This document shows, piece by piece, positions 5,069 through 17,975 of a stretch of 64,000 nt of DNA. Each line of letters opens with the position of its first letter. Within the stretch, counting starts at the first letter, position 1. The notes beneath the pieces are model-generated. The model had not been told where the DNA came from. It searched no databases and saw only the letters and a program-made list of their open reading frames with translations. Both the position numbers and the translations under genes were made by a program. The DNA lies in assembly GCF_017255295.1 (NCBI RefSeq), contig NZ_JAFKDE010000008.1, positions 186,001 to 250,000 of the forward strand. The letters are read 5' to 3'. This DNA comes from Nitratireductor aquimarinus. GTDB taxonomy: Bacteria > Pseudomonadota > Alphaproteobacteria > Rhizobiales > Rhizobiaceae.

Positions 5069-5464
5069 TCAGCCCAGCGCGACCAGCGCGGCCAGAACGT
5101 CCGAACGGCGCAACATGCCGACGAGGCGGGAGCCGTCGACAACGGGAAAGACCCGGTAGGGCTTTTCCAGAAAGGCTTCGGCAGCGCTCGTAAGATCGGT
5201 GGTCAGCGACAGGGTGACAACCTCGCTGCTCATGTGATCGGCGACGGTGCCTTTCCATTCCTGATAATAGCTCGCATTGAGCGCAGGCCGAAAACAGTCT
5301 TTCTGCGTGACGATGCCCATGAGCGCACCGCTGTCGTCGACCACCGGGGCGGCAGCTGCATCGGCCTCGACAAGAAGCGCGACGGCGCGGCGGATCGGCA
5401 TATCCGGTTTCAGAACCGGCATGTCCTTTTGCAGGATGGCTTCCAGGGTCGCGCCATTCGTCAT
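5069..5464 (-). CDS. Two-CBS-domain protein, last gene of the nqr operon
   Basis: Small cytosolic protein of 131 residues made of two CBS motifs: residues about 14-60 (MPVLKPDMPIRRAVALLVE, then VVDDSGALMGIVTQKDCF) and about 74-130 (MSSEVVTLSLTTDLTSAAEAFL, then FPVVDGSRLVGMLRRSDVLAAL). CBS pairs usually bind adenosine nucleotides such as AMP, ATP or S-adenosylmethionine. Its ATG overlaps the stop codon of nqrM (ATGA), so it belongs to the nqr-apbE-nqrM transcript. That suggests an energy- or redox-state sensor acting on the complex, which is inference. Not part of known Nqr complexes. Confidence 0.88.
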   Translation of the reverse strand: MTNGATLEAILQKDMPVLKPDMPIRRAVALLVEADAAAAPVVDDSGALMGIVTQKDCFRPALNASYYQEWKGTVADHMSSEVVTLSLTTDLTSAAEAFLEKPYRVFPVVDGSRLVGMLRRSDVLAALVALG

Positions 5465-5631
5465 TGCTGGCTCTCCTGCCGGCTACGGTTCGGGCAGCCC
5501 TCACAGGCGACATCTTTCAGGCAGGCCATGCCGCCGCAGGAGCCCTTCACGGGCCCACGCCCGGAAAACAGGCCGACGGCAAGGCCGGTTGCCGCGAGAA
5601 GAAAGATCGCCAGTGCGAGAAGGATCTCCAT
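5461..5631 (-). CDS. nqrM: Na+-NQR maturation protein NqrM
   Basis: A 56-residue protein with one N-terminal membrane helix (ILLALAIFLLAATGLAVGLF) followed by a Cys-rich tail: GSCGG, then MACLKDVACEGCPN. The GSCGG motif and four further cysteines match the NqrM family, which supplies iron for the intramembrane NqrD/NqrE iron centre. It lies directly after apbE, the classical place for this gene. Its start is an ATG at 5631, and its stop overlaps the start of the CBS gene. The assignment also implies that the NqrDE cofactor is really assembled in this organism. Confidence 0.88.
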   Translation of the reverse strand: MEILLALAIFLLAATGLAVGLFSGRGPVKGSCGGMACLKDVACEGCPNRSRQESQQ

Positions 5632-5640
5632 GCCCGTTCC

Positions 5641-6618
5641 TCAGATCAGGTGGCGGTCGAAACCGCCCGTGGTGACGGTCGAAAGTTGTGTGCCGTCCTG
5701 AAAGAGGAAAAGCGCTGCAATTCCGTTGCGCCGGGCGAGCGCGGGACCATCCGCATCCGCAGCGGTGAGCGCTGTGGCCCAGCCATCGGCCAGCATCGCG
5801 CTTTCAGCCAGAACCGAGACCGATGCAATCGTCCCGTCGACCGGCGCGGCATGGCGCGGGTCCATGATGTGGCTGTAGCGTCGTTCGCCGATCATATAGC
5901 TCTGCGCGCGCAGCCCCGACGTGGCGACCGCCATGCCGGAGGGCAGCCGAAGGCCGGCAACAGCGCCGATGGCGTCGGGGCGGGGATCTTCGATGGCGAC
6001 CTGCCAGTCGCGTCCCGAAGGATGCTGGCCGAGCGCCTTGAGTTCGCCGCCAAGATCGACGAGGAAGTCGCCATGGCCCAGATCCGCCACGCGGCGCGCC
6101 ACAAGGTCGAGCGCATGTCCCTTGGCGATCCCGCAAAGGTCCATGGTCAGGCCCGGCGCATCCTTGGCGAGACTGTTTTCCGTGGCCGCGAGCCCCTGCC
6201 AGCGCGGGATGCTGTCGCCGCTGATCGGGCCGAACCCCCAGCGCGCGATGAGCGGGCCGACGGTCGGATCGAACCAGCCATCGCTCGCCCCCGCGATGCC
6301 GAGCGCAGCCCGCGCGACCAGCGCGGTCTCTGCCGAAACCGGGGCTTCCTTGTGAGCGCGGTTGAAGGCGCTGATCTCGCTGTCGTCCCGCCAGGGCGAC
6401 ATCTGCCGGTCGACCTGCGCAAGGAGCGCATCAACGGGTGCGCGCAGCCTCTCGGCATCAGAACTGTCGGGCAGGGTGATGCGCCACGCGCTTGCAAAGG
6501 CCCGGCCTTCAATGGTGCGCGTGGCCGGGTTTTCCATCGCTGCACGGGCCCCGCCTGCGGTTGCCAGTGTCGCGCCGGTCAGCGCCAGCATGTGGCGGCG
6601 GGTAAGGTTCAGACGCAT
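5641..6618 (-). CDS. apbE: FAD:protein FMN transferase ApbE
   Basis: Flavin transferase of 325 residues that attaches FMN to threonine in the motif Dgxt/sGAT of exported or membrane proteins. It begins with a twin-arginine-like signal (TRRHMLALTGATLATAGGARA), so it acts in the periplasm. Family features include the N-terminal MSPWRDDSEISAFNRA stretch, VGPLIARWGFG, the DLCGIAKGHALD block and the YSHIMDPRHAAPVDG metal/FAD-binding region. It sits three bases after nqrF, and its obvious client is NqrC (Thr235 in DGITGAT). Whether NqrB is also a client is doubtful, because its motif appears to be missing. Confidence 0.96.
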   Translation of the reverse strand: MRLNLTRRHMLALTGATLATAGGARAAMENPATRTIEGRAFASAWRITLPDSSDAERLRAPVDALLAQVDRQMSPWRDDSEISAFNRAHKEAPVSAETALVARAALGIAGASDGWFDPTVGPLIARWGFGPISGDSIPRWQGLAATENSLAKDAPGLTMDLCGIAKGHALDLVARRVADLGHGDFLVDLGGELKALGQHPSGRDWQVAIEDPRPDAIGAVAGLRLPSGMAVATSGLRAQSYMIGERRYSHIMDPRHAAPVDGTIASVSVLAESAMLADGWATALTAADADGPALARRNGIAALFLFQDGTQLSTVTTGGFDRHLI

Positions 6619-6621
6619 CGT

Positions 6622-7842
6622 TCAGCCTCCGAAGTCGTCATTGTATATCATATGCGGCTCCACACCCAGTTTTGCGAGTGTGTTGAGCACTGCCGAGATC
6701 ATCACCGGCGGGCCGCACAGATAGTATTCGCATTCCTCTGGCGCGGGGTGCCCGGCCAGCGTGGAACGCACCGTGTCGTGAATGAAGCCGGTCGCGCCGG
6801 TCCAGCGATCACCCGGTGCGGGATCGGAAAGGGCGGGCGTCCAGCGGAAGTTTGGATGCGCTTTTGCGATGGCGTCGAATTCCTCGACATAGAAGAGGTC
6901 CGCTGCCGAGCGCGCACCATAGAAGTAATGCATCTTGCGCTCAGTGCCGAGGCCGATCTGCTCGTGGATCATCGCGCGCAACGGGGCCATGCCCACGCCG
7001 CCACCGATGAAGACCATCTCGCGCTGCGTCGGCTGAACGTGGAAATCACCGAACGGGCCGGATGCTTCCACCCGGTCGCCGGGTTTCAGCGAGAAAAGCC
7101 AGGAAGAAACGATGCCCGGCGGAATATCCGTCTCGCGGCCGGCCGGCGGCACGGCCAAACGGATGTTGAACACCGCACGGCCCGCATCCTCTGGCCGGTT
7201 GGCGATGGAGTAGGCGCGGGTAACAGACGTGTCGGAAACCGAGCGCATGTCAGGCCAGTCCGCAAGCCGCCATGTTTCACGGAACGCCTCGTCCACCGCC
7301 ATGTCCTGAAAGTCGAGTTCATAGGGCGGCGCGGTGAGCTGCATGAAACCACCGGCCTGAAAGTCGAATGGCTGGCCTTCCGGCAGTTCCAGAACGAGTT
7401 CCCGGATGAGCGGGGCCAGCTGGCGATTGGAGACAACACGGCAGGTGAAGCCTGTCGCCCCCAGGAAGGCCTGTGGCACGGTAACGGTGCAGGAGCCGCG
7501 CAGGGCGGTCTGGCAGGCAAGGCGCACATGCGCCTTGCGCTCCGCCGCTGAAAGAATGCCTTTTTCGGTCGCCTGCGGTTCGCCCGCCCCTTCGCCCTCC
7601 ACGGTGACGCGGCACAGCCCGCATGTGCCCGAGCCGCCGCAGGCGGCGGGAATGCCGATGCCCGCTCCATGCAGAACGGCAAGCAGCCGGTCGCCGCGCG
7701 CGGCCTCGATGGGCATGGTCTCGTTCACGGTGACCGTCAGCGCTTCCGCCGGAACCAGTTTGCGGCGTGTGGCCAGAAGCGCAAGCGTCAGCGCCACGAT
7801 CAGCGCGACAATGATGACGGCGCCCAAAAGGATCTCGGTCAT
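6622..7842 (-). CDS. nqrF: Na+-NQR-type NADH dehydrogenase subunit NqrF
   Basis: Electron-input subunit, 406 residues. One N-terminal helix (residues 4-24) is followed by a ferredoxin domain with Cys68, Cys74, Cys77 and Cys110 ligating a [2Fe-2S] centre (AACGGSGTCGLC, then RLACQ). The FAD domain carries RAYSIANRPE, and the NADH domain carries GGGVGMAPLRAMI and YYLCGPPVM. This is the standard NqrF architecture and length. The protein ends LGVEPHMIYNDDFGG; the terminal acidic/aromatic tail is typical of NqrF. The gene overlaps nqrE by four bases. It is the best conserved sign that the operon encodes a working NADH-oxidising complex. Confidence 0.97.
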   Translation of the reverse strand: MTEILLGAVIIVALIVALTLALLATRRKLVPAEALTVTVNETMPIEAARGDRLLAVLHGAGIGIPAACGGSGTCGLCRVTVEGEGAGEPQATEKGILSAAERKAHVRLACQTALRGSCTVTVPQAFLGATGFTCRVVSNRQLAPLIRELVLELPEGQPFDFQAGGFMQLTAPPYELDFQDMAVDEAFRETWRLADWPDMRSVSDTSVTRAYSIANRPEDAGRAVFNIRLAVPPAGRETDIPPGIVSSWLFSLKPGDRVEASGPFGDFHVQPTQREMVFIGGGVGMAPLRAMIHEQIGLGTERKMHYFYGARSAADLFYVEEFDAIAKAHPNFRWTPALSDPAPGDRWTGATGFIHDTVRSTLAGHPAPEECEYYLCGPPVMISAVLNTLAKLGVEPHMIYNDDFGG

Positions 7843-8450
7843 GACGCCACCATCTGCGCAAAGGCGGAAAAGCCGAGCGACATCATGCCGGCGATGATGA
7901 AGGTGATGCCAAGCCCCCGCAGCCCCTCCGGCAGGTTCGCGTAGGAAAGCCGCGTGCGGATCGCGCCGAGCATGATCACTGCCACGGCAAAGCCCGTACC
8001 CGCACCGAGCCCGAAGACGGTGGATTCCACGAAGTCGAAGTCACGCTCGACCATGAACAGGCTACCGGCCAGGATCGCGCACTGCACGGTGAGCAGCGGC
8101 AGGAAAACACCGAATGACGCGTAAACCGCCGGGAAAAAGCGGTCGAGCACCATTTCGAGAAGCTGCACGGTCGCGGCGATCACGCCGATGAAGGCGATCA
8201 GCGCGAGATAGGAAAGGTCGATGCCCGGCGAACCCGCCCAGGCCCATGCGCCCGGAGCGAGCAATGCGTGATAGATCAGGTTGTTCAGCGGCACCGTGAC
8301 GCCCAGAACGGCGATCATGGCAATGCCGAGCCCGACGGCCGAGCCCGTGCGCCGAGAAAGCGCGATGAAGGTGCACAGGCCGAGAAACAGCGTCAGCGGC
8401 ATGTTGTCGACAAAAGCCGCGCGCAGGAAGAGGGCGGCAAGCTCGTTCAT
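7839..8450 (-). CDS. nqrE: Na+-NQR-type subunit NqrE
   Basis: Six-helix membrane subunit, 203 residues, closely matching the family over its whole length (VDNMPLTLFLGLCTFIALS near the start, GVTVPLNNLIYHALL, EMVLDRFFPAVYASFGVFLPL, GLRGLGITFIIAGMM at the end). The two cysteines that hold the intramembrane iron-sulfur centre shared with NqrD are kept (GLCTF near residue 26 and VQCAIL near residue 120). It pairs pseudo-symmetrically with NqrD and overlaps it by four bases. Electrons from NqrF are known to cross the membrane through this centre to the FMN of NqrC. Confidence 0.97.
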   Translation of the reverse strand: MNELAALFLRAAFVDNMPLTLFLGLCTFIALSRRTGSAVGLGIAMIAVLGVTVPLNNLIYHALLAPGAWAWAGSPGIDLSYLALIAFIGVIAATVQLLEMVLDRFFPAVYASFGVFLPLLTVQCAILAGSLFMVERDFDFVESTVFGLGAGTGFAVAVIMLGAIRTRLSYANLPEGLRGLGITFIIAGMMSLGFSAFAQMVAS

Positions 8451-9112
8451 GCGCCATCCTCCCCGGTTTCCGGCGGCGTGAACTCACCGGCCTCCACCTG
8501 TTCGGGAAGAAGGCTGCGGATCGCCCAGACAAGGCCGCCAAGCAGGAAAAAGCCGGAGGGCGCAAGCAGCATAAGGTTGAGCGGCGTGAACCAGCCACCC
8601 TGATCGACCGTCGGCAGAAGCTGCCAGTCAAGCAGCGTTCCCGCGCCGAACAGTTCGCGCAGGCTGCCGATCAGGATCAGCACGAGCGAATAGCCAAGCC
8701 CGTTGCCCAGCGCGTCGATCATCGCGCGCCCCGGCGGATTGTGCCGGGCGAAAGATTCGGTGCGGCCGAGCACAAGACAGTTGGTGGTGATGAGGCTGAC
8801 GAACACGGACAGCCGCTGGCTGATCTCGAACAGATAGGCCTGCAGCAACTGGTCGATGACGATGACCAGCGAGGCGACGATCACGATCTGGACGATGAGC
8901 CGGATAGAGGACGGAATGTGGTTCCGGATCACGCTGATAATGCCGGCGGACATGACCAGAACCGCCGTCAGCGAGGCCGACATGGTAAGCGCCGTCGCCA
9001 CCGAAGTCGTGACCGCGAGCGCCGAGCAGATGCCAAGAATCTGCAGGGTTACCGGGTTCTGCCGGATCAGCGGTTCGGTAAATGTGGTCCAGAGGCGCGG
9101 CTGGCTCGACAT
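8447..9112 (-). CDS. nqrD: Na+-NQR-type subunit NqrD
   Basis: Six-helix membrane partner of NqrE, 221 residues. Recognisable by PLIRQNPVTLQILGICSALAV with its conserved Cys near residue 29, SLITTNCLVLGRTESFA with the second conserved Cys, and IDALGNGLGYSLVLI. The C-terminal tail after the last helix is longer and more acidic than in the Vibrio protein. It starts three bases after the nqrC stop and shares the ATGA overlap with nqrE. Both iron-ligating cysteines are intact, so the transmembrane electron path through NqrDE should work. Confidence 0.96.
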   Translation of the reverse strand: MSSQPRLWTTFTEPLIRQNPVTLQILGICSALAVTTSVATALTMSASLTAVLVMSAGIISVIRNHIPSSIRLIVQIVIVASLVIVIDQLLQAYLFEISQRLSVFVSLITTNCLVLGRTESFARHNPPGRAMIDALGNGLGYSLVLILIGSLRELFGAGTLLDWQLLPTVDQGGWFTPLNLMLLAPSGFFLLGGLVWAIRSLLPEQVEAGEFTPPETGEDGA

Positions 9113-9115
9113 GGC

Positions 9116-9916
9116 TCAGAATTCTCCGCGCCGGATTGCCGTCAACAACGGCGCATAACCATCGGGGCCAAGCCAGAACCGGACCATCCGCGTGATGGCG
9201 TTGGAGGTTCGCGTCGCGCCGGTGATCCCGTCGACCTCATATTCATTGCCGGCGCTGCCGCGCGCCACGGCGAAGCGAATGTCGCCGCGCGCATCGCTGA
9301 TCTGCCTGCCGCTGAATTGCGCCAGCCAGGAGGGCTCCTCGATGCGTGCGCCGAGGCCCGGCGTTTCGGACTGGCCGGTAATCGCCATGCCCGCCACGGT
9401 GTTCATGTCGCCCTTGAGCGCGATGATCGCGTCAATCGGGCCGTTATAGCCCGCACCGCTGATGGGCAGGAGGGCGAGCGAAATTGCCCCATTGGCGTCG
9501 CGCAGGAGATAGATCTGGGCGTAGTCCGGGCGCTGACCGAGCCCGGCAAGATCCTCGCCGGCAGTGAGCGTCGTCCAGTTAGCGCTGTCTTCGAGCGCCG
9601 CAGGCAGCGTTTCCGGCGTCACCTCTTTTGCCGCCGCACCGCGTTCCAGATCGATCACCACCGTCGACAGTGCGCCACCTTCGGCGGACAGAAGGTCCGA
9701 CATGCCGGGAATGCCCGCGATGAGGTTTTCCAGCCGCGCCTGCTGTTCCGCGGCGCGGTTTGCCGCCTGAATGGGGCGCAGCACGACCGTTGCCCCGCTC
9801 ACCATCAGCGCGCATATGGCCGACACGAGAAAGGCGACGATCAGCGTCTTGGCGCGGCTTTCATTGGGCAGCGCCAGAAAGCGACGCCACAGGGCGATCG
9901 GGTTCAACTCAGCCAT
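9116..9916 (-). CDS. nqrC: Na+-NQR-type FMN subunit NqrC
   Basis: 266 residues: one N-terminal membrane helix (about 24-48) and a periplasmic FMN-binding domain. The covalent FMN acceptor is Thr235 in DGITGATRTSNA, close to the consensus used by ApbE. The start is the ATG at 9916. A longer frame runs upstream to 10045, but that part overlaps nqrB in another frame and is rich in Arg/Trp, so I reject it. The gene overlaps the 3' end of nqrB by eight bases. Its flavin faces the periplasm, which makes it the natural partner for the cytochrome encoded at 12073. Confidence 0.94.
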   Translation of the reverse strand: MAELNPIALWRRFLALPNESRAKTLIVAFLVSAICALMVSGATVVLRPIQAANRAAEQQARLENLIAGIPGMSDLLSAEGGALSTVVIDLERGAAAKEVTPETLPAALEDSANWTTLTAGEDLAGLGQRPDYAQIYLLRDANGAISLALLPISGAGYNGPIDAIIALKGDMNTVAGMAITGQSETPGLGARIEEPSWLAQFSGRQISDARGDIRFAVARGSAGNEYEVDGITGATRTSNAITRMVRFWLGPDGYAPLLTAIRRGEF

Positions 9917-10685
9917 GACGTCTTCTCCTGCGCGCCGTCCAGAGCGCAATCGCAATCTCATCCAGAAGGGGTGCTGCCAGCGAGGCGAGCAGCGCTGCCG
10001 AAACGGCCACCTGCACCGGCGCTCCATGGCCCCAGCCAAACGCAAAGAGTGTCACCAGCGCGCCATAGAGCGCGCCGTTCAGCCAGCCACCGGTGCGGGT
10101 GGAGGCGCTTGTCACCGGGTCCGTGACCAGAAGCGCCAGCACAACGCCGAATGCGGGCAGAACCGGCGCGATGGGCAGGTCTGCAAGCCATGCGATCAGG
10201 ATGACCGCCAGTGCGCCGGCGATCAGCCGGGCCGACATCACGCCAAGCAGCATGCCCAGCGCGAGCGCCGGTATGGCCGCCCATGCAACCGGCAGGGCAA
10301 AGTCCGGCCATGGCGCGGCGGGAAAGCCAAAGCCCAGAAACGCGATGGTGACGGTCGCCGGGTTCAGGACATTCCGCCCCCAGCCGCCGAAAATAAGTTC
10401 CGCCATCACCGAGCCGAAGCTGATGCCCAGAACGAGTTGCAAAAGGCTGAGCTCCTGCGGCGCAAGCATGGCCACGGCCAGCCCCGTCAGCGCACCGGCA
10501 AAAGACGGGGGCTGTGCGCGCGCCAGCATGAAAATCACATGCCAGAGACCCGAGATCAGCAGCACGAACAACAGCCTTCCGACCGCTTCCGCACCGCCGA
10601 ACCACAGCCAGGTCAGCGCCATCGGCATCAGTGCGAGCAAGAGCAGCATTGCCACCATCTCGCGGTCCCAGAGCCCCCTCGTCAC
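9909..10685 (-). CDS. nqrB: Short NqrB-like subunit lacking a visible FMN attachment motif
   Basis: Membrane subunit of the NqrB/RnfD family, only 258 residues against roughly 400 for classical NqrB. Clear family blocks are WGRNVLNPATVTIAFLGFGFP in the middle and LLVTDPVTSASTRTGGWLNGALYGAL near the end, plus the final LAAPLLDEIAIALW. The long N-terminal extension of NqrB is absent. So is the segment after the AFLxFxxP block that should carry DGxSGAT with the FMN-bearing threonine: here the protein goes from FPAAPWPD straight into the next helix. Either this flavin is lost or it is held differently. It overlaps nqrA by four bases and nqrC by eight, so it is an intact member of the operon, not debris. 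Confidence 0.85.
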   Translation of the reverse strand: MTRGLWDREMVAMLLLLALMPMALTWLWFGGAEAVGRLLFVLLISGLWHVIFMLARAQPPSFAGALTGLAVAMLAPQELSLLQLVLGISFGSVMAELIFGGWGRNVLNPATVTIAFLGFGFPAAPWPDFALPVAWAAIPALALGMLLGVMSARLIAGALAVILIAWLADLPIAPVLPAFGVVLALLVTDPVTSASTRTGGWLNGALYGALVTLFAFGWGHGAPVQVAVSAALLASLAAPLLDEIAIALWTARRRRRHG

Positions 10686-11953
10686 GCCGGCGCCTCCTCG
10701 GCTTCGATGCGGTTCAGGATGATGCGCAGCTGCTTTGACAGCCGGGGCCGGGCGCCCGTTGCATAATCTGCAAGGGCCAGATCCTCTTCGACCAGCGAAA
10801 GCGCTCCCAGCCGGACGGCCGTTTCTTCATCGCCAGACGCGATGGCCCGCAAAAGAGCAGCGGCTGGCATGTCGCCGCCCATGGCCTGATCGAGCGCGGC
10901 GGTGGGAATGACGGGCAAATGCCGTGCCGCTTTTCTGAGCGCGGTTCCGAACCAGTGGTGCTTCACCGCACCGGTCTCGCGTGGTGAAACCGTGACCTGC
11001 CGGTCCCGCGCGCCGAGCCAGTGTGCGGGGCGTCCGTCCAGCGCAGAACCGCTCAGAATTTCGTGCGCACCGGGCCGCACGACAGGCTGGCTGAGGCCGC
11101 GCAGATCCGCGCCATGCTGACAGCGCACAAGCCGCCTTTCGCGCAGCGCCGAACCGGTCACCGAGACAAGCCGCGTGCCGGGCAGAAGTCCGGTTGCAAG
11201 CAGCGCTCCAAGATCGGCTACATCCTCAGCCTCGATATCCCAGACGCGAATCTCCGGCGCGGCCGGTCGATGACGGTGGATCTGGATGCCGGCAAGGCCC
11301 TGCGGATGGTTGCGCCCGCAGGAAATGCGCGAGAGGCCGGCAGGCACTGCACCGCCAAAGTGCTTGCCCGCTGGTTCGCAAAGAAACAGCCGGTCTTTCG
11401 TCAGTTGCGAAAGGGCTGCCAGCCCGCGCGAAAAATCTTCCTCGCGCCCCTCAAGGGCCAGCGATGGCGCAGGCGCGCCGGGTCGGCTGTCCACCGCCAT
11501 GACGAAGATCGCGGCAGGGGCCTCGTCAGCGTGCGGCATGCGTCCGAACGGACGGCTGCGGAACATCCGCCACAGGCCGGAAGACTGGAGAAGCGCTCGC
11601 AGCGCATTGCCATCGACTTCCGCGTTTCCGGTCTCGAACAGATGACGTCCGCCATCGGGTTCATGAAAGAGAAGAAGCTGCGAAAGCCGCCGCCCGGACT
11701 TCAGATCAAGTGAGGCGATTCGCCCGGCCATCGGCGCGACAAGCGCGACCTGCGGCGCGTTTCTCAGGCGCAGAAGCGGTTGCCCCTGCGCGACGAGTTC
11801 ATCCTCGCCCACCAGCGCTTCAACGCGCAGTTCTTCACCGGGAGATGGCGTCAGCGCCGCCTCTTCGGTCAACACCTCAACAGGGTTTTCCGATTGCAGG
11901 GGCACCCGGTCATGCGGGAAAACGAGGCCTGCGGAGAAGGCCGGGCCGAACAT
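10682..11953 (-). CDS. nqrA: Divergent Na+-NQR-type subunit NqrA
   Basis: Soluble cytoplasmic subunit, 423 residues, divergent but alignable with NqrA. Supporting blocks are VALVAPMAGRIASLDLKSGRRL (a lipoyl-like hairpin, compare TAPAAGKVIEINRGAKR), SSGLWRMFRSRPFGRMP, AIFVMAVDSRP, NHPQGLAGIQIH, and SLVEEDLALADYATGARP near the C-terminus. In the last block the FVCPGKYEYG stretch of classical NqrA has become YATGARPRLS, so the cysteine there is lost. It is the first gene of the operon, divergent from the cytochrome gene, with GGAG before its ATG. Classical NqrA contributes to quinone binding; divergence here hints at a changed acceptor side. Confidence 0.9.
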   Translation of the reverse strand: MFGPAFSAGLVFPHDRVPLQSENPVEVLTEEAALTPSPGEELRVEALVGEDELVAQGQPLLRLRNAPQVALVAPMAGRIASLDLKSGRRLSQLLLFHEPDGGRHLFETGNAEVDGNALRALLQSSGLWRMFRSRPFGRMPHADEAPAAIFVMAVDSRPGAPAPSLALEGREEDFSRGLAALSQLTKDRLFLCEPAGKHFGGAVPAGLSRISCGRNHPQGLAGIQIHRHRPAAPEIRVWDIEAEDVADLGALLATGLLPGTRLVSVTGSALRERRLVRCQHGADLRGLSQPVVRPGAHEILSGSALDGRPAHWLGARDRQVTVSPRETGAVKHHWFGTALRKAARHLPVIPTAALDQAMGGDMPAAALLRAIASGDEETAVRLGALSLVEEDLALADYATGARPRLSKQLRIILNRIEAEEAPA

Positions 11954-12072
11954 GCTCCGTCTCCGATGGATTTTCGACGTTTGACCGGCGTTTGAGGTTT
12001 GCCGGAATGCGTCGAACTGATTACCATTCTTTACGGCGACAGTTTAGGAACATACCGGCGGGGTGGAAAGCC
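11954..12072. promoter_or_regulatory. Shared divergent promoter region of nqrA and the pentaheme cytochrome gene
   Basis: 119 bases separate the two divergent starts. They contain a direct repeat CGTTTGA at 11978-11984 and 11989-11995, eleven bases apart (one helical turn), as expected for a dimeric activator such as a response regulator. I do not see an FNR/Anr box. The shared region suggests co-regulation of nqr and the cytochrome; the factor is not encoded next to it. Confidence 0.4.
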
Positions 12073-13272
12073 ATGTTTTTCAAAACGAAGAACTTAGTCA
12101 CGACAACTATCGCTCTTGGCGCATTTGTTTCTGTTCTTTCGTTCGCTGCCGTGTCGCAGGAACAGGCGGCTCCCGCAAATTCCGAATCATCCGAGATCGA
12201 GGAAATCGAAAAGGCGCTTGCGCCCTATGTGATGCCCGAGTCCGGACCGTTCCGCCCCGATCAGATCGAGATCGCCAACAAGGCCGCGATAGCCGCCTGG
12301 GCGCGCTCGGCTCATGCGGATGCGCGTTCAGAGTCTTTCTCGCACTGGAACGAAGACGGGGCCATCCCGCCAAATTGCGCGACCTGCCATTCGGGCGAAG
12401 GGTTCCGCGCCTTTCACGGTCTTGATGGAAGCGCACCCGGCCTGCCGGAAAACCCCATCCCCACGGGCGGCGTTGTGGACTGCGAAACCTGCCACAATCC
12501 GGGTCTTTCCGCGATCAAGGAAGTCAAGCTTCCAAGCGGTCTGTCGCATCCAGTCGCGCCGGGCGAGGCCTCCTGCATCACCTGCCATCAGGGCCGCGCG
12601 GCTGGCGTCACCGTTGCCACTGCGGTGGGCGAAAAGGATGAGGACACGCCCGACAAGGAACTGCGTTTCATCAACCCGCATTACGCAGTGGCTGCGTCCA
12701 TGTGGCTCGGCGGCTACGCCGCATCCGGCTATCACTATCCGGGGAAGGAATATTCCGGCCGCTTCTTCCATGCACGTCCGGTTTCCACCTGCGTTTCCTG
12801 CCATGAACCGCACACGCTGGAAGTGTCGGAACAGACCTGCATGACCTGCCATGAAAACGCGGCTCTGGACGACATTCGCCTATCGCGCGTGAGTTTCGAT
12901 GGCAGCGGCGATGTGAAAAAAGGCATCCGCGCCGACATCGCAGCCAATGCCGACCGGCTGAAGGGCCTGATGACCGCCTACGCAGCCGAAGTCGCCGGCG
13001 CGCCGATGATCTATGACGGCCATCGCTATCCCTATTTCTTTGCAGACATGAACGCAGACGGGCGGATCGACGAGGTCGATGGAAGGGCGGTTGGCTATAA
13101 CGCCTGGACCCCGCGTCTTTTGAAGGCCACCTATAACTGGAAATTCGTCACCGCCGACCCCGGCGCATTTGCGCACAACCCGCATTATGCGCTCGAGCTT
13201 CTTTATGATTCCATTGAGGATCTGGCCGGCGCGCTGGGTCAGGACATGACGGCCTGGAACCTTCAGCGGTAA
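12073..13272 (+). CDS. Periplasmic pentaheme cytochrome c, divergent from nqr
   Basis: 399 residues with a signal peptide (residues 1-28, up to AAVSQE) and five CxxCH heme sites: CATCH (102-106), CETCH (137-141), CITCH (168-172), CVSCH (240-244) and CMTCH (256-260). The C-terminal third has no heme but holds an EF-hand-like loop DMNADGRIDE and a conserved-looking NWKFVTADPGAFAHNPHYALELLYDSIEDL-type ending (quoted in parts) seen in multiheme cytochromes of the c3/NapC-like superfamily. Start at ATG 12073; the frame is open further upstream but overlaps nqrA. The divergent pairing with nqr and the flavin transferase suggests it takes electrons from the periplasmic side of the complex. Confidence 0.85.
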   Translation: MFFKTKNLVTTTIALGAFVSVLSFAAVSQEQAAPANSESSEIEEIEKALAPYVMPESGPFRPDQIEIANKAAIAAWARSAHADARSESFSHWNEDGAIPPNCATCHSGEGFRAFHGLDGSAPGLPENPIPTGGVVDCETCHNPGLSAIKEVKLPSGLSHPVAPGEASCITCHQGRAAGVTVATAVGEKDEDTPDKELRFINPHYAVAASMWLGGYAASGYHYPGKEYSGRFFHARPVSTCVSCHEPHTLEVSEQTCMTCHENAALDDIRLSRVSFDGSGDVKKGIRADIAANADRLKGLMTAYAAEVAGAPMIYDGHRYPYFFADMNADGRIDEVDGRAVGYNAWTPRLLKATYNWKFVTADPGAFAHNPHYALELLYDSIEDLAGALGQDMTAWNLQR

Positions 13273-13392
13273 GCGAACAAGGCGGGTTTGAGGACCCGCC
13301 GCGTTCTTGACAAGCGACCGTTCCTCTTACACGAGCTTTCCGATACGCCACCCTTCATGGTGGCCGGCAAAGAGTTCGGAAAGGGTAGGAAC

Positions 13393-14532
13393 ATGTTCGA
13401 CAGCGCTCACATCGCCGAGGCCGTTGCCTGGCGTCACGACCTGCATCGTCACCCCGAATTGGGGTTTCAGGAAGAGCGCACGTCGAAACTGATAGCCGGG
13501 CTGTTGCAGGGCTGGGGCTGGCAGGTGCACACCGGTCTGGCTGAGACCGGCGTGGTTGCGCGGCTTGGCGAAGGCGGGCCTTCGATCGGCCTGCGCGCCG
13601 ATATCGACGCCCTGCCAATTGAGGAAGCCACAGGCCTCGAATACGCTTCGACCCATCCGGGAAAGATGCATGCCTGCGGGCATGACGGCCACACCGCCAT
13701 GCTGCTTCTGGCTGCACGCCAGATCGCAGCCGAGGGCGTGAAGGACGGAAATGTCACGCTGATTTTCCAACCGGCGGAGGAAAATGACGGCGGTGCGCGG
13801 GTGATGATCGAGGAGGGGCTTTTTGGCAAATTCCCCTGCGACACGGTGTTCGGCATTCACAACTGGCCGGGTCTTGCGCCCGGTCGGCTGGTCGCCCGCG
13901 ACAGCGAGATGATGGCCGCATTCGCCATCTTCGAAATCGTGATCGAGGGGCGCGGTGGTCACGCCGCCATGCCAGAGCAGAGCGACGGTGTGGTGGCTGC
14001 GGCAGCGCGGATGGCGGCGGCTCTTCAGGAATTGCCTGCACGCCGCCTGTCGCCGCTGGTGCCGGGCGTTGTGTCGGTAACGCAGATCCACACCGGTTCC
14101 GCCTTCAATGTCTGCCCGGACCGTGCGATTGTCAGCGGCACGGCCCGCTGGTTCCAGCCGGAGGCCGGTGACGAGATCGAAAAGCGGCTGGGCGAAGTGG
14201 TGCAGGGCGTTGCCGCCGCCCATGGCTGCCGCGCCCGCGTCGATTACCAGCGGCGCTATCCCGCGACGATCAACAGCGCCGCCGAGGCGGCTCTCGTGCG
14301 CCGCGTCGGGGACACGATGGGGCTCGATACGGGCGAGACCGGGCCGAGCATGGCGTCCGAGGATTTCGCTTTCATGCTCAACGAGAAGCCGGGCGCGTAT
14401 ATCTGGCTGGGCGCTGCACGCGAGGGCGACAATCCCGGCCTGCACTCGCCCCATTTCAACTTCAATGATGACGTGCTGCCGACCGGCTCTGAATTCTGGG
14501 TGCGGCTCGTGCGGCAGGCGCTGGCCGCCTGA
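13393..14532 (+). CDS. M20 family amidohydrolase (hippurate hydrolase-like)
   Basis: Metal-dependent amidohydrolase/carboxypeptidase of the M20D type, 379 residues. Metal and substrate motifs in order: WRHDLHRHPELGFQEERTS, LRADIDALPIEE, MHACGHDGHTAMLL, FQPAEENDGGARVMIEEGLF, then HNWPGLAPG and the dimerisation-domain motif GRGGHAAMPEQSDGV. Start at ATG 13393 with AGGGTAGGA just upstream; a longer frame from 13288 lacks a ribosome site. Members remove N-acyl groups from amino acids (hippurate, N-acetyl amino acids, indole-acetyl conjugates). The stop overlaps the start of the LysR gene, so the two are co-transcribed. Confidence 0.93.
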   Translation: MFDSAHIAEAVAWRHDLHRHPELGFQEERTSKLIAGLLQGWGWQVHTGLAETGVVARLGEGGPSIGLRADIDALPIEEATGLEYASTHPGKMHACGHDGHTAMLLLAARQIAAEGVKDGNVTLIFQPAEENDGGARVMIEEGLFGKFPCDTVFGIHNWPGLAPGRLVARDSEMMAAFAIFEIVIEGRGGHAAMPEQSDGVVAAAARMAAALQELPARRLSPLVPGVVSVTQIHTGSAFNVCPDRAIVSGTARWFQPEAGDEIEKRLGEVVQGVAAAHGCRARVDYQRRYPATINSAAEAALVRRVGDTMGLDTGETGPSMASEDFAFMLNEKPGAYIWLGAAREGDNPGLHSPHFNFNDDVLPTGSEFWVRLVRQALAA

Positions 14533-15440
14533 TGGACGCGCTGGACAGTCGTTTCCTGCGCGAGTTTCTGGTCGTCGCCCGCGAGGGCTCGATCCGCCGC
14601 GCAGCCGAACGGCTGAACATCGCGCCCTCGGCGATCAGCCGCAAGCTGGCCGAGGTCGAGGCGCGGCTGGGCGTGGCGCTGGTGGCGCGCAGCGCACAGG
14701 GCATCACGCTCACGGATGCCGGGCGTCTGGTGCGCGAACATGCGCTGGTGCAGCAGGATGAGCAGACCTTTCTGCTCGATCAGATCGGCAAATTTCGCGA
14801 GGCCGGCGGTCAGGTGGTGCGGATCGCGGTTGGCGAAGGCTTCGCCGCCGATCTCATGCAGAACGGTCTGGCCCCGCTTGGCGCACGCCACCCGCATCTG
14901 CGTTTCCGCATAGATCTTGCCGGAACCGAAGAGATCCAGCGCCGCGTGGTCGAGGGCGAGGTTGATCTGGGCATTGCCTACAATCCCGTGCCGACCGAGG
15001 CCACGCGCTCCGTCGCCTTTGCGCGTCAACCACTCTGCGCTGTCGTGCCCGTCGGTTCGCCGCTGGCGGCGCGCGAACACATCCCGCTGGCCGAGATGCT
15101 TGCCGAGCCTCTGGCCATGCTCGATGCGCGTCACGGCATCCGCACGCTGGTCGCGCGCGCGGCAAGCGATCTGGGGCTGGCGCTGCGTCCGCAGGTGGAA
15201 ACCTCCTCCATCGCGGCGCTGATCCGCTATGTGGGCGCAGGCATGGGCGGCACATTTCTGCCCCGCTTCTCCGCCTCCATTCAGGCCGAGCGCGGCGAGG
15301 TCGCCATTGTCGATCTTGATGAAGAGAGCCTTCAGCATGTCAGCGCGCATCTGATGGTGCGCGCCCGCCGGCGACTGCCGCAATCGGCGGCTGTGACCGT
15401 CGATTATCTGGCTGCGCACATGGTCGCCTTTCGCGATTAG
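14532..15440 (+). CDS. LysR family transcriptional regulator
   Basis: 302 residues: N-terminal helix-turn-helix (FLREFLVVAREGSIRRAAERLNIAPSAISRKLAEVEARLG, quoted in parts) and a C-terminal periplasmic-binding-protein-like effector domain. It overlaps the M20 gene (ATGA). A perfect palindrome fitting the LysR box T-N11-A lies 14 bases after its stop, in front of the next operon, so it probably controls the dehydrogenase/aldehyde dehydrogenase/membrane-protein genes downstream. The inducer is presumably the compound released or consumed in this pathway. Confidence 0.94.
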   Translation: MDALDSRFLREFLVVAREGSIRRAAERLNIAPSAISRKLAEVEARLGVALVARSAQGITLTDAGRLVREHALVQQDEQTFLLDQIGKFREAGGQVVRIAVGEGFAADLMQNGLAPLGARHPHLRFRIDLAGTEEIQRRVVEGEVDLGIAYNPVPTEATRSVAFARQPLCAVVPVGSPLAAREHIPLAEMLAEPLAMLDARHGIRTLVARAASDLGLALRPQVETSSIAALIRYVGAGMGGTFLPRFSASIQAERGEVAIVDLDEESLQHVSAHLMVRARRRLPQSAAVTVDYLAAHMVAFRD

Positions 15441-15453
15441 ATCGCCGTTCAGT

Positions 15454-15470
15454 GTTGCGATAATCGCAAC
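15454..15470. promoter_or_regulatory. LysR-type operator palindrome
   Basis: GTTGCGATAATCGCAAC is a perfect 17-base palindrome around a central A. It contains TTGCGATAATCGCAA, which fits the LysR recognition pattern T-N11-A. It lies in the 110-base gap between the LysR gene and the dehydrogenase gene at 15551, about 80 bases before that start, a typical activator position. Confidence 0.6.
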
Positions 15471-15550
15471 GCAACGTGCCTGTTTACGGGGCTACTCAAC
15501 AACACGCTGTCACCGCAATGTCATGAAAGCCAAGTGAAACGGGAGGTATC

Positions 15551-16438
15551 ATGACGCAGTCGGTCGGTGTGATCGGTCTTGGAGCAATGGGAATGGGCAT
15601 GGCCCGGTCCCTGTCCGCCGCAGGCTTTTCAGTTGCAGCCTATGATCTTTCCGCAGAAGCCATGGCCCGCGCTGCCGAAACCGGCATCGTCACCCATGAG
15701 ACGCCCGCAGCGGTGATCGCGGCAAGCGACGCCATCGTGCTTTCGCTGCCTCTGGCGAGCCATGTCGAGGCGACCGTCGAGGCGGGGCTGGCGGCAGGCG
15801 CATTCAGCGAGCCGAAAATCATCATCGATACGTCCACCTCCGAGGCGGCGGTGAGCCGCCGGCTTGCCACAAGGCTTGCAGACCTCGGCCATGGCTTTCT
15901 CGATGCACCGGTGAGCGGTGGTCCCCAGGGAGCAGCAAGCGGCGCATTGTCCGTGATGCTCGGGGGCGATGAACAATGGCTCGCCAGGGCGCAGCCGGTT
16001 CTGGATGTGATTGCCGCCAAGGTGATCCATGTCGGGCCGAGCGGCGCCGGCAACATCGCCAAGCTCGTGAACAACATGCTGGTCGCCTGTCACATGCTGA
16101 CCACGGCTGAAGGCCTGCGCCTTGCCGAAGCCTCCGGCCTGCCGGCGGAAGACGCGATGCGCGTCATCAACAGCGCCACGGGCCGCAGCGCCCTGAGCGA
16201 GATCCATTTCCCCAACTGGGTTCTGAGCGGCAGTTTCGACAGCGGGTTCTCCGCCGGGCTGATGCGCAAGGATGTGCGGCTGGCGCTCGAACTGGCGCAG
16301 GAAAGCGGTTGTGCCATGCCCGTGTCGGAACTGGTCGCCAGCCTCTGGTCCGAGGAGAATTCGGGCGTTTCCGACAATCAGGATTTCATGCTGCTTGGCC
16401 GCGTTGAGGCCGGGACGAAAGAGAAGACGAATGGCTGA
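15551..16438 (+). CDS. NAD(P)-dependent beta-hydroxyacid dehydrogenase (3-hydroxyisobutyrate dehydrogenase family)
   Basis: 295 residues. N-terminal Rossmann motif VIGLGAMGMGMARSLSAAGF, then the family blocks FLDAPVSGGPQGAASGALSVMLGG (substrate loop), a GPSGAGNIAKLVNN block with the catalytic Lys, and a helical C-terminal domain. Members oxidise 3-hydroxyisobutyrate, tartronate semialdehyde-type or related beta-hydroxy acids. It has a good ribosome site (GGGAGGT) and overlaps the following aldehyde dehydrogenase by eight bases. Together the two could take a hydroxy acid through a semialdehyde to an acid or acyl compound, but the substrate is unknown. Confidence 0.9.
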   Translation: MTQSVGVIGLGAMGMGMARSLSAAGFSVAAYDLSAEAMARAAETGIVTHETPAAVIAASDAIVLSLPLASHVEATVEAGLAAGAFSEPKIIIDTSTSEAAVSRRLATRLADLGHGFLDAPVSGGPQGAASGALSVMLGGDEQWLARAQPVLDVIAAKVIHVGPSGAGNIAKLVNNMLVACHMLTTAEGLRLAEASGLPAEDAMRVINSATGRSALSEIHFPNWVLSGSFDSGFSAGLMRKDVRLALELAQESGCAMPVSELVASLWSEENSGVSDNQDFMLLGRVEAGTKEKTNG

Positions 16439-17975
16439 CGACATGATCCCCGCACACGATACGCGCGCCGAAGTCGCACACTTGCTGACCGGGCTTCTGG
16501 GCAGCGCCGACGTGCAGAACCATGTGGGCGGACAGCTGATGCCGGGCGACGGCGAAACGCTGGCGCTCACCGATCCCGCCACCGGCCGGGTCTTTGCCGA
16601 GTTTCCGGATGCCGGTGCGGCCGTTGTGGATGCCGCGGCCGGGGCGGCCATCGCGGCGCAACGCGAATGGTGGGGCAAGACGGCCTCCGAGCGCGGGCGC
16701 ATCATGTTCGAGATTGCGCGCCAGATTCGTGCGCATGCCGAGCCGCTTTCACGCCTTGAAGCGATTTCCGCCGGGCGACCGATCCGCGATGCAGCCGGTG
16801 AGCCAGCCCGCATGGCCGAGATGTTCGAATATTACGCGGGCTGGTGCGACAAGATCACCGGCGATGTAATCCCCGTGCCTTCGAGCCATCTGAATTACAC
16901 GCGTCACGAACCCATTGGCGTCGTGACGCAGATCACCCCCTGGAATGCGCCGCTCTTCACCTGCTGCTGGCAGGTTGCACCGGCGATCTGCGCCGGCAAT
17001 GCGGTCATGCTGAAGCCTTCCGAGCTGACGCCGCTCAGCTCGCTCGTCATCGCCGCGCTGTGCGTGAAGGCCGGCGCGCCGAAGGGGCTTGTCAACGTGA
17101 TTGCGGGGCAGGGGCCGACCGCAGGCCAGAAGATGATCGAGCATCCGGCAACGGGTCTGGTGGTCTTTGTCGGCTCGGCCACGGGCGGCGCAGCCATTGC
17201 GTCCGCTGCCGCGCGCCGTCTCATACCGTCCATCCTGGAACTCGGCGGCAAGTCCGCCAACATCGTCTTCGGCGATGCGGATATCGACCGTGCCGTGGTC
17301 GGCGCGCAGGCGGCAATCTTTGCTGCGTGCGGCCAGAGCTGCGTGGCCGGCTCGCGCCTTCTGGTGCATCGCAGCGTCCATGCCGAGCTCGTCGGCAAGC
17401 TGGCGGAAGCGAGCGCGCGCATCCCGGTCGGCATGCCGCTCGACATGGCAACGCAGATCGGCCCGGTCAACAATGCCCGCCAGTGGGACAAGGTCGACGG
17501 TATGGTGCGCACTGCCGTTTCCGAAGGCGCGCAGCTGGCCACCGGTGGCGGCAGGCCGGAAGCCCTCGGAGAGAGCGGCGGCTTCTTCTACGCTCCGACG
17601 ATCCTGGACGGCGTGTCCCGCGACATGGAAATCGCGCGTGAAGAGGTGTTCGGACCCGTCCTCTCCGTTCTCTCCTTCGACGACGAAGAAGAGGCTGTGG
17701 CGCTCGCCAACGACACGCCATACGGGCTCGCAGGCGCAGTCTGGACGCGCGATGTGGGGCGTGCGCACCGGGTTGCGGCGAAAGTTCGCGCTGGCACATT
17801 CTGGATCAACAGCTACAAGACCATCAACGTCATGTCGCCCTTCGGCGGCTTTGGCCAGTCGGGCTACGGGCGCTCTTCCGGTCGGGAAGCGCTCGCCGCT
17901 TACACGACAACAAAATCTGTCTGGGTCGAAACCGCAGCCGACCCGACCATCGGCTTCGGTTACGCGCCGGGCTGA
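16431..17975 (+). CDS. NAD(P)-dependent aldehyde dehydrogenase
   Basis: 514 residues of the ALDH superfamily. Visible active-site features: Asn in PWNAPLFTCCWQVAPAICAGNAV, the NAD-binding KPSELTPLSSL, catalytic Glu in LELGGKSANIVF, and catalytic Cys in AACGQSCVAGSRLLV; the C-terminus has SPFGGFGQSGYGRSSGREAL. Length and motifs are complete, so it should be active. It begins at ATG 16431 inside the end of the previous gene, whose stop it overlaps; the frame upstream of that is a shadow of the dehydrogenase. Substrate not predictable beyond an aldehyde made in this M20/LysR locus. Confidence 0.94.
   Translation: MADDMIPAHDTRAEVAHLLTGLLGSADVQNHVGGQLMPGDGETLALTDPATGRVFAEFPDAGAAVVDAAAGAAIAAQREWWGKTASERGRIMFEIARQIRAHAEPLSRLEAISAGRPIRDAAGEPARMAEMFEYYAGWCDKITGDVIPVPSSHLNYTRHEPIGVVTQITPWNAPLFTCCWQVAPAICAGNAVMLKPSELTPLSSLVIAALCVKAGAPKGLVNVIAGQGPTAGQKMIEHPATGLVVFVGSATGGAAIASAAARRLIPSILELGGKSANIVFGDADIDRAVVGAQAAIFAACGQSCVAGSRLLVHRSVHAELVGKLAEASARIPVGMPLDMATQIGPVNNARQWDKVDGMVRTAVSEGAQLATGGGRPEALGESGGFFYAPTILDGVSRDMEIAREEVFGPVLSVLSFDDEEEAVALANDTPYGLAGAVWTRDVGRAHRVAAKVRAGTFWINSYKTINVMSPFGGFGQSGYGRSSGREALAAYTTTKSVWVETAADPTIGFGYAPG

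Follow-up and report, generated by a model that had tools for sequence, protein, structure and literature searches.

A variant Nqr gene cassette linked to a divergent pentaheme cytochrome c in Nitratireductor aquimarinus and its possible role in exporting NADH electrons to the periplasm

A 64,000-nucleotide stretch of the Nitratireductor aquimarinus genome (contig NZ_JAFKDE010000008.1, positions 186,001 to 250,000 of the forward strand; hereafter the window) harbours a cassette in which the genes for an Nqr complex are divergent from a gene for a pentaheme c-type cytochrome. From its gene content and conserved residues, we consider it reasonably likely that this cassette encodes a one-way Nqr that sends electrons from reduced nicotinamide adenine dinucleotide (NADH) via NqrC to the cytochrome. 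Export of NAD(P)H electrons is argued for by the loss of return-leg parts while the outward leg is strictly retained; by the maturation genes within the cassette together with its constant association with a periplasmic multiheme cytochrome; and by a further clade in which cytochromes of this family are paired with a ferric-reductase/NOX-type protein.

In the proposed mechanism, NADH would reduce NqrF, with its flavin adenine dinucleotide (FAD) and 2Fe-2S cluster, and the electron would traverse the membrane via the NqrD/E 2Fe-2S cluster and reach, at the periplasmic face, the covalent flavin mononucleotide (FMN) of NqrC. The ordinary return leg through NqrB FMN, riboflavin and ubiquinone would be broken, because NqrB lacks the FMN site and some elements of the quinone site. 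Reduced NqrC would pass electrons on to the pentaheme cytochrome, a transfer that we infer together with its outward direction, the ligation of the hemes and the acceptor; the cytochrome would then deliver the electrons to a periplasmic acceptor encoded outside the cassette. ApbE and NqrM from the same cassette would mature NqrC and NqrD/E.

Organization of the cassette

The cytochrome gene lies on the plus strand (12073-13272) and encodes a protein of 399 amino acids with five CXXCH motifs; the divergent intergenic region common to this gene and nqrA (11954-12072) spans 119 bases between the two starts, confirming the arrangement described in the initial annotation of the sequence. On the minus strand the order is nqrA (10682-11953, 423 amino acids), nqrB (9909-10685, shortened to 258 amino acids and with a GTG start), nqrC (9116-9916), nqrD (8447-9112), nqrE (7839-8450) and nqrF (6622-7842); all six NqrA-F subunits are encoded in this one operon, with NqrB and NqrF as separate genes. 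These are followed on the same strand by apbE (5641-6618), encoding an FMN transferase; by nqrM (5461-5631), whose 56-amino-acid product belongs to the factors that mature the NqrD/E cluster and scores 23.7 bits against Pfam NqrM (cut-off 22); and by the gene for a two-CBS-domain protein (5069-5464) which forms the conserved end of the cassette. Neither nqrM nor the CBS gene was named in the initial annotation, nor was the lack of the N-terminus and Gly140 in NqrB described below.

Compared with the NCBIfam TIGR models, the window proteins NqrC (145.8 versus a cut-off of 144), NqrD (268.3 versus 244.85), NqrE (257.3 versus 247.55) and NqrF (435.1 versus 295) scored above cut-off; NqrA, which is divergent in sequence (193.8 versus 321.05), and NqrB (73 versus 349.9) scored far below. 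NqrA lacks the C-terminal cysteine stretch, as had been claimed, although this loss counts for little as evidence and proves nothing, since NqrA carries no cofactor (PMC12174285; articles are cited by PubMed Central number and for the excerpts drawn on). The window genome contains one match to Pfam NQRA_N and one to NqrD (E <= 0.001), and it also encodes the complex I 49-kDa subunit. This subunit was present in 17 of 17 genomes checked, and NADH:quinone activity is therefore probably available elsewhere.

NqrB lacks the FMN segment and parts of the quinone site

In Vibrio cholerae, electrons pass from NADH through the FAD and 2Fe-2S cluster of NqrF to the NqrD/E 2Fe-2S cluster, NqrC FMN, NqrB FMN, riboflavin and ubiquinone, with the N-terminal helices of NqrB forming the quinone pocket (PMC9325719, PMC12174285). 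NqrB was aligned for 33 cytochrome-linked rows (the window, L025-L051, L053, L054, L061, L062 and L083, with L denoting loci) and nine canonical rows; L052 was excluded from this alignment, from the Nqr tree and from the cytochrome alignment because of broken frames. The segment containing the FMN threonine (42-50 residues, SGAT in canonical NqrB) is missing from 33 of 33 linked rows and present in nine of nine canonical ones, so that the absence of the FMN motif reported for the window NqrB holds for the whole linked set; L089 (genome G208), which is cut by a contig end and in which TSAT replaces SGAT, was counted as canonical. Three more linked NqrB sequences (L097, L099 and L101), of which matched stretches only were compared, also lack the motif.

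A second stretch, of 34-43 residues following the first helix, is likewise missing from all 33 linked rows, as is the N-terminal quinone-site segment: linked rows have 7-13 residues ahead of the first transmembrane helix versus approximately 54-68 in the eight canonical rows complete there, the canonical lengths possibly counting a few residues ahead of the true start. Gly140 is found in none of the 33 linked rows versus all nine canonical rows, with Ser at this position in the window. The complex should not be classed as an NADH:quinone oxidoreductase, as tests for two features that define NqrB showed both to be absent.

The outward leg and the phylogeny of the variant Nqr

The outward leg is intact in all 31 linked rows that include NqrC-F, each with four NqrF cysteines, four NqrD/E cysteines and the NqrC motif [ST]GA[TS]. 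In the window, NqrC has the flavinylation motif TGAT, in agreement with the periplasmic flavin assigned to it initially; NqrD and NqrE each have both cluster-binding cysteines; and NqrF has its four 2Fe-2S cysteines together with FAD/NADH motifs.

The acidic residues D88 and D133 of NqrD, which with E144 of NqrB we take to be relevant here, are found in every one of the 31 linked rows, and NqrB E144 is present in just one of 33. Conservation is equally complete (31/31) for NqrE E95, picked out as a relevant acidic residue in PMC10643135. Coupling in Nqr and Rnf is debated, with some models assigning ion transport to NqrB/RnfD and others to the NqrD/E-type pair (PMC12174285), and a natural complex with NqrD/E and NqrC but without the NqrB FMN site could separate these models in a single experiment. 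A tentative idea, which we hold to be rather doubtful, is that the cassette encodes a half-circuit that still pumps Na+: an NADH:cytochrome c sodium pump with all Na+ movement confined to the NqrD/E step. If true, this would give nearly electroneutral electron export, bypassing quinone and the bc1 complex.

In a 43-row tree of NqrC-F, built by a quick method with no bootstrap, 34 variant rows are split from nine canonical rows by a branch with a Shimodaira-Hasegawa-like approximate likelihood ratio (SH-aLRT) support of 100. The variant side mixes families, for example Rhizobiaceae and Paracoccaceae, which suggests that the cassette has moved by transfer between lineages. One locus (L027) comes from a metagenome-assembled genome (MAG) labelled Granulosicoccus and has no apbE match; its cassette groups among alphaproteobacterial ones, and this placement could reflect either transfer or a binning error.

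The pentaheme cytochrome

The cytochrome has a Sec-type signal peptide, as judged by eye. Pfam places it no closer than c3/c7-type multihemes, NCBIfam offered no relevant name and a comparison of its sequence with the PDB matched nothing useful; counting of cbb3-type cytochrome c domains across 16 genomes was uninformative. An alignment (A1) of 37 homologues, from which the near copies L030, L042 and L049, the broken L052 and the distant L057 were left out, showed exactly ten invariant histidines: five within the CXXCH motifs plus H81, H203, H233, H247 and H368. All five hemes are thus probably bis-His ligated and, this being the simplest reading, the cytochrome would be an electron carrier and not an open-heme enzyme. 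OcwA serves as a warning, as it has nine hemes of which two have an open site, and sufficient histidines need not give bis-His ligation throughout (PMC6703420); the cytochrome described here differs from it in having five CXXCH motifs.

An AlphaFold model of the cytochrome (predicted local distance difference test score of 82) had OcwA chains as its best Foldseek matches, followed by NrfA-type chains, all of them weak; the model hints at a link to the NrfA-type superfamily. Identity as an NrfA-type nitrite reductase was rejected, as most NrfA proteins have a CXXCK heme and the cytochrome has none, with five CXXCH motifs and five extra invariant histidines in its place.

Linkage of the cytochrome to nqr and maturation genes

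Genome contigs were scanned with the cytochrome as query, yielding 34 loci. In 30 of these (L025-L054) nqrA and nqrB adjoin the cytochrome divergently; conservation of the gene pair across genomes, which the initial annotation had proposed as its check, is borne out, and because nqrA stands divergent beside the cytochrome in this many loci the pairing exceeds chance. The remaining four, from three Myxococcota (L055, L056 and L058) and one planctomycete (L057), carry cytochrome copies in tandem and gave no match to nqr. In the Corallococcus locus (L058:6905-11962) a frame of 794 residues holds the cytochrome domain twice and lies next to one for a 757-residue protein with CXXCH motifs; the two could be an outer-surface electron-transfer pair.

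The genes nqrC-F come next in all 28 loci other than L028 and L054, in which the contig ends within the cassette. Matches to apbE were found in 27 of these 28 loci, with none in L027 and just a 34-residue piece in L032; CBS matches were also found in 27 of the 28, with none in L035 and the gene cut by the contig end in L043. An nqrM-like frame, read by eye, precedes the CBS gene in 26 of the 27 CBS-bearing loci (not in L027, and partial in L052), and was also seen by eye in six of six variant-Nqr loci inspected from the whole-genome samples described below; Pfam NqrM matched four of six such peptides, three of them above cut-off. A genome search with Pfam NqrM detected two of ten variant-Nqr genomes (the window, where the match extended beyond the gene's own stop, and G039) versus six of six canonical genomes, and nqrM in the remaining variants is represented by frames read by eye. 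The cassettes of L052 and L101 have several broken frames, owing to decay or sequencing error.

Reading frames of at least 90 codons were clustered and sorted by eye across 45 stretches (the 34 scan loci, ten loci from whole-genome samples and the first 26 kb of the window), and these contained no other widely conserved neighbour of the cassette; the biggest non-cassette cluster not taken for a shadow frame was present in seven of the 45. A Na+/H+ exchanger was ruled out as a general cassette partner, as its gene adjoins the cytochrome in two genomes alone (L062:6240-7406 and L068:9984-11189); a third match lies farther away in L099. In the window, the region 3' of the cytochrome gene (13288-17975) harbours an M20 amidohydrolase gene and beyond it, judged by eye, genes for a LysR regulator, a 3-hydroxyisobutyrate-dehydrogenase-like and an aldehyde-dehydrogenase-like protein, none of which the clustering found to accompany the cassette in the majority of loci.

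Four of 32 nqrA-cytochrome intergenic regions (L040, L045, L053 and L054; two Shinella, a Pelagibacterium and a Paracoccaceae MAG) contain strict FNR-type boxes, compared with an average of 0.02 and at most 1 over 300 shuffles; the window's own 119-base region contains no such box. This distribution suggests low-oxygen control in some lineages only. Among the intergenic regions of the ferric-reductase-linked loci introduced below, two of six (L068 and L069) have an FNR box, a count made without a shuffle control.

An alternative partner and the reverse test

Whole-genome samples were searched as well, and counts from these (genomes numbered G) were kept separate from those of the scan loci, as species may overlap. 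In the family sample the cytochrome was found in seven of 121 genomes. Three copies stand beside a variant Nqr (the window, G039 and G046), and four (G025, G049, G099 and G101) are divergent from a gene whose product combines Ferric_reduct, FAD_binding_8 and NAD_binding_1 domains, with no nqrD match in these four genomes by NqrD search; the other genome of the window's genus in this sample (G040) had neither the cytochrome nor nqrD. In the class sample of 289 genomes, four matched the cytochrome at E <= 0.001: the window, G372 (beside a variant Nqr) and the weak matches G366 (E 4.3e-4) and G268 (E 8.9e-4). A profile search of the phylum sample of 398 genomes gave seven matches at E <= 1e-30: the window, G372, three further variant-Nqr genomes (G699, G717 and G742) and two ferric-reductase-linked ones (G625 and G695).

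The strong matches thus represent 13 distinct genomes, with the cytochrome beside a variant Nqr in seven, beside a ferric-reductase/NOX-type protein in six and without either in none. Ferric-reductase/NOX-type proteins are known as outward exporters of NAD(P)H electrons. Such a membrane protein is divergent from the cytochrome at L066, L067, L068, L069, L098 and L100, and the six cytochromes linked to it form one clade (support 100/99) which sits beside some Nqr-linked cytochromes with modest support (91/80); 6% of bootstrap trees unite the Nqr-linked cytochromes in one group. Linkage between the cytochrome and its partner also survives a switch from divergent to co-directional order in G039 and G742.

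For the reverse test, NqrD searches of the family sample (E <= 0.001) and the class sample (E <= 1e-40) gave 16 Nqr genomes, G068 being left out for a spurious partial match. Seven of these have a short NqrB and nine a full-length NqrB; the cytochrome is present in four of the former versus none of the latter.

Weighing of alternative explanations

Several observations count against the export reading. Gly141 is present in 27 of the 33 linked NqrB rows, and the riboflavin ligands are mostly present: T162 in 28, N200 in 29, N203 in 25 (with His at this position in six further rows) and D346 in all 33, this last position being Glu in all nine canonical rows. The window NqrB has all four ligands, although the set is incomplete in some relatives; as they occur in most linked rows, NqrB may still be redox-active. 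Single-sequence and profile searches found no homologous cytochrome for the variant Nqr of G065, G106 and G236, and the variant complex can therefore exist without it; the profile, which did find its targets in the phylum sample, found none in these three, in the nine canonical genomes or in G040 (13 genomes in all). No conserved acceptor gene was found near the cassette in the 45 clustered stretches, and the fold match of the cytochrome model to OcwA is weak (Foldseek E 2.2e-3, TM score 0.41, with no match at E <= 0.001). The route proposed in the initial annotation, to a periplasmic acceptor instead of ubiquinone, fits the NqrB losses, the intact outward leg and the exchange of partners, but its implication of a complete quinone bypass is weakened, because the riboflavin ligands are mostly kept and three variants lack the cytochrome. 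Near the Nqr of G236, approximately 1.8 kb upstream of nqrB, is a gene for a 198-residue four-CXXCH protein of another kind (L082:4929-5525, minus strand, start chosen manually), which is possibly a substitute electron outlet for this nqrA-less complex.

We think it improbable that the complex is still a reductase of quinone, or of another acceptor on the cytoplasmic side, with NqrC FMN docking on NqrB riboflavin and the cytochrome serving as a side branch or safety valve. The mostly present riboflavin ligands are compatible with this, as are the NqrB fold, retained in an AlphaFold model (A2, 28 NqrB sequences, was used for folding alone, without L028, L030, L042, L049, L052 and L054), and the proposal for two-subunit Nqr/Rnf-like complexes that a covalent FMN samples a non-covalent flavin site directly (PMC11334425). 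However, no linked row has the N-terminal quinone-site segment or Gly140, and mutation of Gly140/141 is reported to disrupt interaction with ubiquinone (PMC4014512); further, several linked rows lack part of the riboflavin ligand set and two variants (G065 and G236) have no nqrA beside nqrB.

Inward flow, in which a periplasmic donor would reduce the cytochrome and electrons would pass through NqrC, NqrD/E and NqrF to form NADH at the expense of an ion gradient, has a precedent in the related Rnf, which works in reverse in some bacteria (PMC12174285); we judge it quite unlikely here, given that the alternative partner belongs by its domains to the outward-exporting ferric-reductase/NOX class and that the 45 clustered stretches contain no conserved donor gene near the cassette. 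Co-regulation alone, with the cytochrome serving another periplasmic pathway and making no contact with NqrC, would accommodate the three variant Nqr without cytochrome, the related cytochromes of Myxococcota and the planctomycete that stand without nqr, and the FNR-type boxes in a few intergenic regions that could merely couple expression, but is very improbable when linkage persists both through the change from divergent to co-directional order and with a different NAD(P)H-side partner.

Relation to known systems and implications

By comparison with the Na+-translocating NADH:quinone oxidoreductase of the Vibrio cholerae type, the cassette has six homologous subunits, ApbE and NqrM alongside and an intact outward leg, and differs in its variant NqrB, without FMN threonine and quinone-site segment, and in the linked pentaheme cytochrome; it is a homologous complex, probably with a changed outlet. 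The initial statement that no Nqr of this kind had been described has to be qualified, as two-subunit Nqr/Rnf-like systems with proposed one-way NAD(P)H export, and with an NqrB-like part without the flavinylated threonine, were proposed earlier (PMC8238504, PMC11334425). Those systems fuse the NqrB-like domain to an NAD-binding domain, whereas NqrA-F are separate genes here and the path would pass via the NqrD/E cluster.

Methanosarcina Rnf with MmcA is likewise an Nqr-related ion pump with an extra multiheme cytochrome outlet, although Rnf takes electrons from ferredoxin and MmcA, a heptaheme protein, has its relatives among the octaheme tetrathionate reductases; the excerpts of these sources describe no loss of the NqrB/RnfD FMN there (PMC12174285, PMC11024163). 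The cassette further differs from Rnf complexes in having NqrF and NqrA instead of the RnfB and RnfC iron-sulfur subunits. In the excerpts of literature available through PubMed Central, a coverage that leaves subscription journals largely outside, we recognised no description of an Nqr-cytochrome unit.

Annotation based on names would label such a variant Nqr as an ordinary NADH:quinone reductase. If the export reading is true, the cassette would provide a route from NADH to the periplasm in Alphaproteobacteria, including members of the cultured genera Martelella, Shinella, Paracoccus and Jannaschia.

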